From positions 1-33,940 of the forward strand of contig JAFGSX010000300.1 in assembly GCA_016934455.1 (NCBI GenBank): a stretch of 33,940 nucleotides of DNA, given 5' to 3'. Shown here piece by piece: positions 1 through 21,767 of this stretch. Every line of letters starts with the position of its first letter. Position 1 is the first letter of the stretch. Below the pieces are notes generated by a model, which was given only the letters and a program-made list of their open reading frames with translations, ran no database searches and was not told the origin of the DNA. A program made the position numbers and the translations under genes. The DNA is from Deltaproteobacteria bacterium (GTDB taxonomy: Bacteria; Myxococcota; JACRCW01; JAFGSX01).

Positions 1-64
1 CGCTGCTCGGGTGAAGTCGGTCGGGATTCACTCCCGACCGACGAGGGGCTGGCCGACAGCCCCT
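1..64 (+). repeat. Dispersed two-hairpin repeat, copy A (may begin before the window)
   Basis: Perfect hairpin GTCGGTCGGG(16-25)/CCCGACCGAC(33-42), loop ATTCACT; then perfect hairpin AGGGGCT(44-50)/AGCCCCT(58-64), loop GGCCGAC. Flank CGCTGCT...GTGAA is shared with the copy at 21096-21161 (-). Confidence 0.7.
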
Positions 65-78
65 GGAAAGGTAGCCAG

Positions 79-630
79 ATGTCGACGACAGAGATCAAGA
101 TCGGTGGGCTCGGCGGGCAGGGAGTGGTGCTCGCTGGCATGATCATCGGCAAGGCGGCCGCGCTGTTCGACCAGAAGGACTCGGCGATGACCCAGGCCTT
201 CGGGCCCGAGGCGCGCGGCAGCTCCTGCTCGTCGCAGGTGATCGTCTCGGACCAGAGCATCCTCTACCCGTACGTCTCGCGGCCCCAGATCCTGGTGGTC
301 ATGTCCCAGGACGCCTACAACAAGTTCCTGCCCGAGCTGGCGCCGGGCGGCACGCTGCTGATCGAGGAGGAGCTGGTCACGCCCGACAACCTGACCCCGG
401 GCATCACGCTCTATGGCATCCCGGCCACCCGGCTGGCCGAGGAACTCGGCCGCAAGATGGTGCTCAACATCGTGATGGTCGGCTTCTTCGCCTCCACCAC
501 CAGGCTGATCAACGCCGACGCCATGCGCAAGGCGGTCGCCGACTCGGTGCCCAGGGGTACCGAGAAGCTCAACCTGGGCGCCTTTGACAAGGGCTTCGAG
601 TGGGGCGCCAAGCTGGTCGGCAAGGCGTAG
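79..630 (+). CDS. korC: 2-oxoacid:ferredoxin oxidoreductase, gamma subunit (KorC-like)
   Basis: 183 aa; N-terminal KIGGLGGQGVVLAGMIIGKAA and QAFGPEARGSSCSSQVIVSD are typical of the POR/KOR gamma family; RBS-like GGAAAGG upstream. Confidence 0.88.
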   Translation: MSTTEIKIGGLGGQGVVLAGMIIGKAAALFDQKDSAMTQAFGPEARGSSCSSQVIVSDQSILYPYVSRPQILVVMSQDAYNKFLPELAPGGTLLIEEELVTPDNLTPGITLYGIPATRLAEELGRKMVLNIVMVGFFASTTRLINADAMRKAVADSVPRGTEKLNLGAFDKGFEWGAKLVGKA

Positions 631-5669: not shown

Positions 5670-7157
5670 TCACGTCGCCACTCCCGCGCGCTGTTGCCGC
5701 GCCGCGATCTCGATCGTGCGCAGCCGGTCCTTGTAGGCGTGATAGCGGTTCTGCGTCTCCTGGCTCAGCGCGCTGTCCGAGTTGCCCTCCCAGCGCCGGC
5801 ACCAGTAGAGCGAGTCGTAGACGCGGCCGACCCTGAAGCTGCGGCACAGCCGCAGAACGGCCGCGTAGTCCTCGCCGTAGCTCGCGTTGGGGAAGCCGCC
5901 GACGCTGCGCAGCGTCGGAACGTGATAGCAGCGCGGCGCGCCCAGGCCGTGGACGCGCAGCGCGTTGTTGTGGCCGTTGTCGTCGCTCCACTCGCGGTGG
6001 TCGATCAGGCCCGGCGACAGCGGCGACAGGTCGAATGCGACCGTGGTGTAGGCGCCGATCAGCAGCGCGCAGCCGCCGGCCTCGAGCGCCTCGACCAGCC
6101 GCGCCAGCGCGCCGTCGCCGTCGTAGAGGTCGTCGCTGTCGAGCTGCACCGCGTAGCGGCCGCACTGCGGCGAGAAGATCGCCTCGTTCCAGCAGCCGCC
6201 GATGCCCAGGTCGCGCCGCTCCGGGACCAGGTGCACCAGCCGCCGCTCGCGTTGCGCCAGCTCGGCGAGCAGGGCGCTGGTGCCGTCCGTCGAGTGGTTG
6301 TCGACGGCGATGACGTTGAACTCGAAGCCGGCCCTCTGCGCCAGCGCGCTGCGCACGGCATCGCCGACGGTCTTGACCCGGTCGCGCACGGGGATCACCA
6401 CGCTCGCCCGGACCGGCGGTGCGGACGCATCCGCGGCCAGCGGCTGGCGGCCGGGCGGCAGCCAGGCATCGATGCGGCGCAGGTGCGCGGTCGCCACCTG
6501 CTCCATCTCGAGCTGGTAGTCGCGCTGGCGCGGGTCGAGGTAGTCGAAGACCCGGGCTCCGCTGCCGCGGCGATCGCTTACCGGCCGCAGCAGCAGCGGC
6601 TCGGGCAGGTGCAGCACGGTTCCGATCTCGGCCAGCCGCAGCCGCACGTGGTACAGGGCGCCGTGGCGGAGATCGGGCGGCACCGCCGTCGCATCGGCGG
6701 TGAGCTGTTCGAGCTGCGGGCGGGCGACGAGCAGCGCCGGGCCAAAGTCGAAGTCGTCGCGCAGGCCGCCGGGCTGGTAGTCGATCAGCGGGTGCGGCTG
6801 CAGCCCGCCAGCGCTCTCCTGGTCGAAGAAATCGGCGTAGCCGAGCGCGGCGTCTGTCTCGCGGGTCGCGCGCCACAGCCGCTCGATGCTGCGCGGGGGT
6901 GCGACCGCGACGCCGGGCAGCAGCCAGAGCAGGTGCGTCGCCGCGGTGCGCCTAAACCAATCTAAGATCGACGTCACGCCCGCCGCTGACCACAGGGTCT
7001 CGACCGCGATCGCCGTCGCGTCCGGCGCTGGCGGCGGGGAGCCGGGCAACGCCGCGAGCGCGATCGCGCCGATCTCGGGTGTGCCGCGCAGCGAGTCCAG
7101 TGTCCGCTCGAGCCCGGGCTCGCCGGTCCACGGCAACAGGGCGGCGATCGGCTTCAT
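5670..7157 (-). CDS. Glycosyltransferase family 2 protein with an extra N-terminal GT-like region
   Basis: ASVVIPVRDRVKTVGDAVRSAL...NVIAVDNHSTDGTS...YAVQLDSDDLYDGDGALARLV (DxD-like), GEDYAAVLRL. ATG at 7157 overlaps the upstream stop (7154) by 4 bp. Confidence 0.82.
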   Translation of the reverse strand: MKPIAALLPWTGEPGLERTLDSLRGTPEIGAIALAALPGSPPPAPDATAIAVETLWSAAGVTSILDWFRRTAATHLLWLLPGVAVAPPRSIERLWRATRETDAALGYADFFDQESAGGLQPHPLIDYQPGGLRDDFDFGPALLVARPQLEQLTADATAVPPDLRHGALYHVRLRLAEIGTVLHLPEPLLLRPVSDRRGSGARVFDYLDPRQRDYQLEMEQVATAHLRRIDAWLPPGRQPLAADASAPPVRASVVIPVRDRVKTVGDAVRSALAQRAGFEFNVIAVDNHSTDGTSALLAELAQRERRLVHLVPERRDLGIGGCWNEAIFSPQCGRYAVQLDSDDLYDGDGALARLVEALEAGGCALLIGAYTTVAFDLSPLSPGLIDHREWSDDNGHNNALRVHGLGAPRCYHVPTLRSVGGFPNASYGEDYAAVLRLCRSFRVGRVYDSLYWCRRWEGNSDSALSQETQNRYHAYKDRLRTIEIAARQQRAGVAT

Positions 7158-20566: not shown

Positions 20567-20591
20567 GGCTCATCGCCACCTGCACAAAGAA

Positions 20592-20678
20592 AGACCGCCG
20601 CGCACACGACCGAAAGCCCTTACCGTTGCTCCCTTCCGGGCCTGGCGGGGTTCGGACTGGGCCGTTGCGCGGCGGTCA
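20592..20678 (-). ncRNA. ffs: Bacterial small signal recognition particle RNA (4.5S-type)
   Basis: Minus-strand core GAACCCCGCCAGGCCCGGAAGGGAGCAACGGTAAGG matches the SRP RNA apical domain; ends paired by GACCGCCGCGC(20593-20603)/GCGCGGCGGTC(20667-20677). Confidence 0.93.
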
Positions 20679-20754
20679 CAAGCGCCCTGACGGGCGAAAC
20701 TCCATCGACCTCGCGAGCTCTGCCCGGGGGGCCGAGCCTTCTCATCTGGCACAG

Positions 20755-20843
20755 TGGCGGAGAGGGCGGGATTTGAACCCGCGGTACCTTTTGGGTACAC
20801 ACGATTTCCAGTCGTGCACCTTCGGCCTCTCGGTCACCTCTCC
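20755..20843 (-). tRNA. tRNA-Ser (anticodon GGA), CCA encoded
   Basis: Minus strand GGAGAGGTGACCGAGAGGCCGAAGGTGCACGACTGGAAATCGTG...GGTTCAAATCCCGCCCTCTCCGCCA; class II long variable arm. Confidence 0.96.
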
Positions 20844-20991: not shown

Positions 20992-21083
20992 TGGCGGAGA
21001 GCGAGGGATTCGAACCCCCGGTACCGTTGCCGGTACACTAGATTTCGAGTCTAGCGCCTTCGACCAGGCTCGGCCAGCTCTCC
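20992..21083 (-). tRNA. tRNA-Ser (anticodon CGA), CCA encoded
   Basis: Minus strand GGAGAGCTGGCCGAGCCTGGTCGAAGGCGCTAGACTCGAAATCTAG...GGTTCGAATCCCTCGCTCTCCGCCA; class II long variable arm. Confidence 0.96.
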
Positions 21084-21095
21084 GTAACGTCTGTC

Positions 21096-21161
21096 GAGGG
21101 CGTCGGCCGCCCCCTCCCCGTCGAGAATGAATCTCGACGGGGTTTCACCCCGGCAGCAGCG
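21096..21161 (-). repeat. Dispersed two-hairpin repeat, copy B
   Basis: Minus strand CGCTGCTGCCGGGGTGAAACCCCGTCGAGATTCATTCTCGACGGGGAGGGGGCGGCCGACGCCCTC: hairpin 1 at 21116-21126/21132-21142, hairpin 2 at 21096-21101/21109-21114 with loop GGCCGAC, as in copy A. Confidence 0.7.
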
Positions 21162-21245: not shown

Positions 21246-21767
21246 TCAACCTTTGGTGCCGTCAATACCGGCGTCGCTCTCGGCGCCGTTTTCTGCCGCG
21301 GGTGTCTGTCGCGCATCGCGCCGGTCACTAAAAAAGGCTCGCAGCAGCTCCGCCGCCTGGTCGGCCAGCACGCCCGACTCGACAGCGACCCGGTGGTTCA
21401 GGCGCGCGTCGGCAGCCACGTTGAGCACGCTGCCGCAGGCTCCGGCTCGCGGATCGGCGGTGCCGTAGACCAGCCGGTCGACGCGGCCGTTGACCAGGGC
21501 GCCGGCGCACATCGGGCACGGCTCGAGCGTGACGTAGAGCGTGCACCCGTTCAGGCGCCAGCGGCCGAGGTGTGCCGCCGCGGCGCGCAACGCCAGGATC
21601 TCGGCGTGCGCGAGCGGATCCCGGTCGACCTCGCGCCGGTTGTGCGCGGCTGCGATGATCGCGCCATCGTACACGACCACGGCTCCGACCGGGACGTCGG
21701 CGTGCTCGAGTGCCTGCCGCGCCTGATCGAGCGCGGCCTGCATCGCTTGCCGATCTTCCACGTTCAC
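21246..21767 (-). CDS. tadA: tRNA-specific adenosine deaminase
   Basis: DPLAHAEILALRAAAAHLGRWRLNGCTLYVTLEPCPMCAGALVNGRVDRLVYGTADPRAGACGSVLNV (HAE + PCxxC zinc site). GTG start (21767) overlaps the upstream stop. Confidence 0.93.
   Translation of the reverse strand: MNVEDRQAMQAALDQARQALEHADVPVGAVVVYDGAIIAAAHNRREVDRDPLAHAEILALRAAAAHLGRWRLNGCTLYVTLEPCPMCAGALVNGRVDRLVYGTADPRAGACGSVLNVAADARLNHRVAVESGVLADQAAELLRAFFSDRRDARQTPAAENGAESDAGIDGTKG

Follow-up and report, generated by a model that had tools for sequence, protein, structure and literature searches.

A dispersed, REP-like two-hairpin repeat with predicted mobility in the draft genome of a Deltaproteobacteria bacterium

Introduction

The window analysed here is a stretch of 33,940 nucleotides, contig C478 of a 5.60-Mb draft genome (613 contigs, 82% complete). 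It raises the question of what kind of element places the same pair of hairpins, with nearly identical loops and different stems, ahead of an oxidoreductase gene and again beside a tRNA gene. A sequence-only reading had located copy A at 1-64 on the plus strand and copy B at 21096-21161 on the minus strand, and the sequences, when re-read, were as it had given them. The neighbours that it named were confirmed as well, with copy A before korC and copy B between tadA and tRNA-Ser(CGA). The features are as follows, with bit scores from two covariance models, R1 and the refined R2.

1..66, plus strand: copy A (5' box, foot, hairpin 1, hairpin 2); 75.7 bits with R1, 75.3 bits with R2
1..6, plus strand: 5' box of copy A, consensus TGCTG[C/G]; its last base, C at position 6, covaries with G at position 52, where loop 2 begins
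8..15, plus strand: conserved foot of copy A, CGGGTGAA, A-type
16..42, plus strand: hairpin 1 of copy A, 11-bp stem, loop TTCAC (27-31)
44..64, plus strand: hairpin 2 of copy A, 8-bp stem, loop GCCGA (52-56)
65..74, plus strand: 3' tail of copy A, GGAAAGGTAG, the purine-rich tail of the family
79..630, plus strand: gene for a 2-oxoacid:ferredoxin oxidoreductase gamma subunit (korC-like)
20992..21083, minus strand: tRNA-Ser(CGA), downstream neighbour of copy B
21094..21161, minus strand: copy B; 81.1 bits with R1, 74.8 bits with R2
21096..21114, minus strand: hairpin 2 of copy B, loop GCCGA (21103-21107)
21116..21142, minus strand: hairpin 1 of copy B, loop TTCAT (21127-21131)
21153..21158, minus strand: 5' box of copy B, TGCTGC; C at 21153 covaries with G at 21107
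21246..21743, minus strand: tadA, tRNA adenosine(34) deaminase, upstream neighbour of copy B

Results

Structure of the two copies

Both hairpins of both copies form, as RNA and as DNA (z scores of -4.5, -4.2, -5.1 and -3.5 against shuffles), and the pattern ATTCAYT-N6..20-GGCCGAC occurs in the window in copies A and B only, with none expected from shuffled sequence. The paired stems described earlier therefore stand, with shorter loops: instead of the 7-nt ATTCAYT and GGCCGAC, the true loops are the 5-nt TTCAC or TTCAT and GCCGA, because the A-T and G-C pairs that close them are part of the stems. The near-identical block at the 5' end likewise exists, as the box TGCTG[C/G], but its earlier alignment on CGCTGCT had set A and B one GCT unit out of register; copy A has C in place of the first T of the box (1-6), and the box of copy B runs from 21158 to 21153. 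A pseudoknot between GTGAA in the foot and TTCAC in loop 1 was considered and rejected: GTGAA is kept in copies whose loop 1 is changed or shortened, so the complementarity is not general.

The first base of the contig is the start of copy A, whose tail GGAAAGGTAG probably doubles as the ribosome-binding site of the gamma-subunit gene. Another contig, C63, carries korA followed by a second gene that is probably korB by its position, with two copies before korA and one cut-off copy after the second gene; the gene order would make C63 and the window adjacent, korC opening the window behind copy A. Around copy B, the tRNA-Ser(CGA)-tadA cluster is adjoined by a small SRP RNA (20586-20681, minus strand) and tRNA-Ser(GGA) (20755-20843, minus strand). 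The Rfam matches in the window were the SRP RNA and tRNAs only, and nothing credible was returned at E ≤ 5 for four copy-bearing loci.

Size and organization of the family

Further copies were sought across the genome by pattern, then by blastn, and then with R1 and R2, 150 candidates being scored. Blastn gave at least 29 copies; R1 gave at least 110 matches at E ≤ 1, some of them weak or single hairpins read on the opposite strand, and at least 101 copies over the fetched loci at E ≤ 0.01, at which threshold R2 gave at least 98 in this genome. The two copies thus belong to a dispersed family of at least 98-101 members in the 5.6-Mb draft. These totals are lower limits, because scoring was confined to the 150 candidates and because about one-fifth of the copies are found no more than about 200 nt from the end of a contig, a position to be expected were the repeats breaking the assembly.

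The canonical unit is about 75 nt long and reads 5'-TGCTG[C/G]YN-GGGTGRR-hairpin 1-hairpin 2-purine/A-rich tail-3'. A-type units have GGGTGAA at the foot of hairpin 1, and G-type units have GGGTGGG. In a composite type, hairpin 1 is preceded by a 5' hairpin (TGGCCGCGC...GCGCGAGCCGGGTGGGGGG) and followed by a different 3' hairpin with a GCAG loop; units of this type have neither the 5' box nor loop 2. A canonical unit is nested in a composite unit at four loci with the same junctions, indicating that the nested form itself has spread. Two further observations concern sequence in and beside the copies. A module of about 27 nt, CGACCCTKGGAARTCCCCGNNGGGGGA, interrupts hairpin 1 or hairpin 2, behind the letters CCGA, in about 10 copies (L042 around 6785-6815, L071, L133 1947-2040, L097 3574-3667, L128-L131 and L139), and is possibly a second, smaller mobile repeat. 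In this GC-rich genome, runs of 7-9 A directly adjoin several copies (L035 1-14, L055, L059 and L036).

Covariation and a long-range pair

We asked whether the exchange of stem letters with preserved pairing, seen earlier in two copies, extends to the family. In the 101-copy alignment, which was fitted to the model and so favours structure, although the effect is very large, all 19 stem pairs had changed on both sides (299 double-change cells), 93.3% of cells were paired, and none of 500 shuffles matched this; with the partner slid by one base, pairing fell to about 50%. In a structure-blind alignment of the first 16 copies, 10 of 19 pairs had changes on both sides, and again none of 500 shuffles reached the observed covariation. 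The compensated stems and conserved loops of the sequence-only reading are thereby borne out, as is the significant covariation that it expected of a covariance model. Within loop 1, alignment columns 38 and 42 also covary (T-A in 46 copies, C-G in 22). A comparison of G-U with A-C mismatches, which would bear on the strand, gave 52 against 26 cells, reduced to 19 against 16 when counted by position and too weak to use.

A further covariation, like that within loop 1 absent from the sequence-only reading, links the 5' box to loop 2. Among the 81 canonical copies with letters on both sides, base 6 of the box (TGCTG[C/G]) and the first base of loop 2 ([G/C]CCGA) form a Watson-Crick pair in 75 (C-G 50, G-C 24, U-A 1, other 6). 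The corrected mutual information of this pair is the sixth highest among all column pairs, with 26 double changes, and the adjoining G7-C105 match is invariant. The switch recurs across different hairpin 1 backgrounds. About 16 state changes were counted on a tree built from the other columns, most of whose branches are unsupported; on the supported branches there are four independent pairs, concordant in 3.9 of 4 on average and never opposite, a number too small for significance. This covariation makes a contact between the 5' box and loop 2 probable, in the form of a pseudoknot or kissing pair.

Template switching at replication (quasipalindrome correction) is an established mutational process that keeps palindromes perfect and could leave compensatory changes with no function and no selection on structure. 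The stems, both near-perfect palindromes, are what it would produce, but the process cannot account for covariation between box and loop 2, for loops that stay fixed, or for composite units lacking both box and loop 2, and we consider it a highly improbable account of the family.

Genomic placement

The copies are concentrated between genes: a home-made codon-usage gene finder, trained on this genome, places 89 of 101 outside genes, compared with 10.6% of random positions drawn from those loci, and some of the other 12 may be intergenic too. The many intergenic copies that a dispersed element of this kind was expected to have are therefore present. At a typical site, a stop codon precedes the copy and the ribosome-binding site of the following gene comes after it. 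In 22 cases a co-directional gene ends no more than 12 nt upstream of a copy; 15 of these genes stop with TAG, which often runs straight into the box (TAG followed directly by TGCTG), and the downstream start codon is commonly 5-20 nt past the tail. Conserved operons are interrupted by copies at rplK/rplA, in the gap after rplA, and at korA-korB-korC. In a separate, unusual break of a conserved operon, an opposite-strand Sel1-repeat gene splits nusG from rplK (L141, contig C461), with repeat copies in the surrounding gaps.

Orientation differs between the types: 36 of 48 A-type copies point the same way as the gene downstream, compared with 9 of 33 copies of the G-type and composite type (Fisher p = 3e-5). 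Such placement might be read as that of a host-serving intercistronic RNA element, whose fold sets mRNA stability, processing or translational coupling and whose structure is kept by selection. The A-type copies would suit this, since between co-directional genes, and between stop codon and ribosome-binding site, 27 of 36 lie in sense and 9 do not (p = 0.004), including those in the rplK/rplA and kor gaps. In addition, the 5' box could form a small GU-rich stem on the plus strand only (TGCT/GGTG, with T-G and G-T pairs), but its C5-G14 pair is broken in 12 copies without compensation. Most G-type and composite copies (24 of 33) run antisense to the gene that follows, the family has no consistent gene partner, and the tandem and nested copies fit mobility better, so that we regard a host-serving role of this kind as unlikely. 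Still less can be said for a family of transcription terminators or attenuators. Stable GC-rich hairpins beside stop codons would be in keeping with one, but the tail after hairpin 2 is rich in A rather than in T (frequencies of about 0.6 and about 0.05-0.11, respectively, over tail positions 3-5), and many copies are internal to operons and are followed by a gene in the same direction; a termination function is scarcely credible.

Evidence for mobility

Three features together indicate mobility: identical cores in unrelated surroundings, units arrayed head to tail, and the nesting of one unit in another. Cores identical at 65 of 65 positions occur with different flanks on contigs C428 (two copies) and C29, and arrays with a spacing of 75-81 nt were found on C103, C428, C461 and C247. 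Neighbours less than 150 nt apart are head-to-tail (C103, C428 with 2 and 3 units, C461, C63, C247 and C269), and no inverted pair of the BIME kind occurs among them. No clear target-site duplication was found, the mean longest flank match being 4.14 against 3.68 in shuffles. PF01797 (Y1/RAYT), the family of the RAYT/TnpA-REP transposase to which the sequence-only reading had pointed, was not found in this assembly, which is 82% complete and broken at repeats; nor was a Y1/RAYT gene found in three other genomes that carry look-alike repeats (G191, G192 and G075), and 10 genes situated between adjacent copies are not transposases. The sense bias of the A-type copies (27 of 36), which a purely selfish element need not show, argues against an element of that sort.

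Judged from sequence comparison, the family is probably a REP-like, non-autonomous mobile repeat. Its box-to-loop contact would give a compact plus-strand fold, and some enzyme may recognise the folded single-stranded DNA, or RNA, by the loops and the box rather than by the letters of the stems. Recognition of this kind would explain why the stems drift with compensation and the loops stay. Copies would then persist after landing in the gap that separates a stop codon from the ribosome-binding site behind it, where they are probably transcribed as intercistronic hairpins that may secondarily affect mRNA stability or coupling.

Look-alikes in other genomes

We searched for relatives of the family outside this genome. 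No credible relative was found in about 85,000 GTDB species and viral contigs (by exact pattern) or in phages and plasmids (by blastn); three single exact-pattern matches in unrelated organisms, with R2 scores of 19-27 bits, were taken as chance. As relatives, 38 further genomes from the phylum were sampled, the nearest of them sharing only the class; none gave a match at E ≤ 0.001, and R1 and R2 found no copy in G001, the nearest relative compared, which is of the same class. Among 195 genomes of the phylum, 17 had a match, including this one, and those in the others were weak (28-44 bits).

Several of these look-alikes are multicopy (at least 29 copies in G055 and at least 40 in G192), and in G192, G055 and G057 their cores sit inside larger repeats with different ends. 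In G192, the core lies between CAGGCTGCTG... and ...GCACCCTG in near-identical dispersed repeats of about 150 nt (L201-L220, L161 and L184-L186), and most of the complete copies are flanked by matching YTAR direct repeats (CTAG/CTAG, TTAG/TTAG, CTAA/CTAA); Y1_Tnp was not found in that genome. In G055 (L221-L235), at least 17 copies share one model score and have the core between the hairpins TGAGAGCTTGTCGAAGAATTCGACGAGCTCTCA and TCAAGGCCCGTCGATTGTTCGACGGGCCTTGA, some of them truncated; most start at TGA, and the flanking hairpins are long. In G057, the core lies between CTAAAC and GTTTAG. The shared GGGTGRRG foot, joined in G055 by the letters GTGAAG...ATTCACT, is suggestive of common descent, but the GC-rich hairpin pairs could have converged instead.

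The G192 repeat appears to be a cut-and-paste MITE driven by a DDE transposase, and the present family might be one too: a similar core sits there in a repeat with inverted termini and matching 4-nt flanks in most complete copies, and TAG is enriched on both sides of the copies in this genome. The canonical units here, however, lack both a terminal inverted repeat outside the core and clearly matching flanks, which makes a MITE very unlikely. A broader reading, tentative and rather doubtful, would make the core (GGGTGRR foot and hairpins 1 and 2) an old module of the phylum, carried by unrelated mobile elements with different ends and free-standing here, where it would form the box-loop 2 pseudoknot or kissing contact and be read as a folded strand by a new kind of mobilising enzyme.

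For the preferred reading, a REP-like mobile repeat, the structural signature, unusually clear and including a covarying pair over long range, suggests what the recogniser must read, namely the 5' box and both loops, all on a single strand. REP-like repeats with no known enzyme are an open question, and the approximately 100 copies, some of them in essential operons, provide an ordered list of targets for the question whether these repeats move in the form of folded single-stranded DNA and how they act on operon mRNAs.

Comparison with known repeat systems

Literature searches on repeats of this sort in myxobacteria-like organisms turned up nothing relevant. The earlier proposal of a dispersed REP/BIME-like element holds as a selected structure that is REP-like; "REP" itself does not, because the family has neither the GTAG nor the CGTC tag and no inverted BIME arrangement; no RAYT gene was detected in this assembly, which is 82% complete. 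Like GTAG-tagged REP/BIME elements, the repeats are short, palindromic, intergenic and high in copy number, with complementary changes in their stems (PMC3733652, PMC8266576). They differ in having two unlike hairpins in one direction, where GTAG-tagged elements have one palindrome or an inverted pair, and in having no GTAG at the hairpin foot, no detected RAYT, and a long-range box-loop pair. The foot reads GGGTGAA or GGGTGGG, the motif [GA][TC]AG being enriched only in the tail (42 of 83 against 18-20 of 83), with a weak enrichment 5' of the box (19 of 83 against 5 of 83). CGTC-tagged REPs resemble the family in their stems of about 8-11 bp, loops of 4-5 nt and lack of a known transposase (PMC3733652). 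Unlike them, the present units have no unpaired CGTC at either end, where TGCTG (5') and purine/A-rich sequence (3') stand instead, the only CGTC being inside the hairpin 1 stem, and form no inverted dimers.

Two other groups invite comparison. Candidate mobile or repeat motifs from scans of intergenic regions are likewise structured and strongly covarying, with dozens of copies per genome, but the motif reported in that work consists of one long stem carrying a UYCCGG repeat, where the present one has two hairpins (PMC11109978). The ends of IS200/IS605 elements and of their MITEs share strand-specific folded hairpins and a 5' guide that base-pairs (PMC8266576); the IS200/IS605 guide pairs with the cleavage site, whereas the covarying partner here is hairpin loop 2, and Y1_Tnp, the HUH transposase that acts for such elements on folded single-stranded DNA, was not found in this genome. 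TnpA-REP and IS200/IS605 enzymes recognise a folded single strand through its loops and a 5' motif (PMC8266576), and loops with a 5' single-stranded motif are also the candidate recognition features of the present family, as in GTAG-tagged REP/BIME elements with TnpA-REP (PMC8266576, PMC3733652). REPs adjoin the 3' ends of open reading frames and often supply the TAG stop codon (PMC3733652), and the present family shares with REP families its dispersal, arrays, nesting, recombining modules and stop-codon-adjacent placement. Collectively, and on present evidence, the element works like a REP while standing outside the described REP families.
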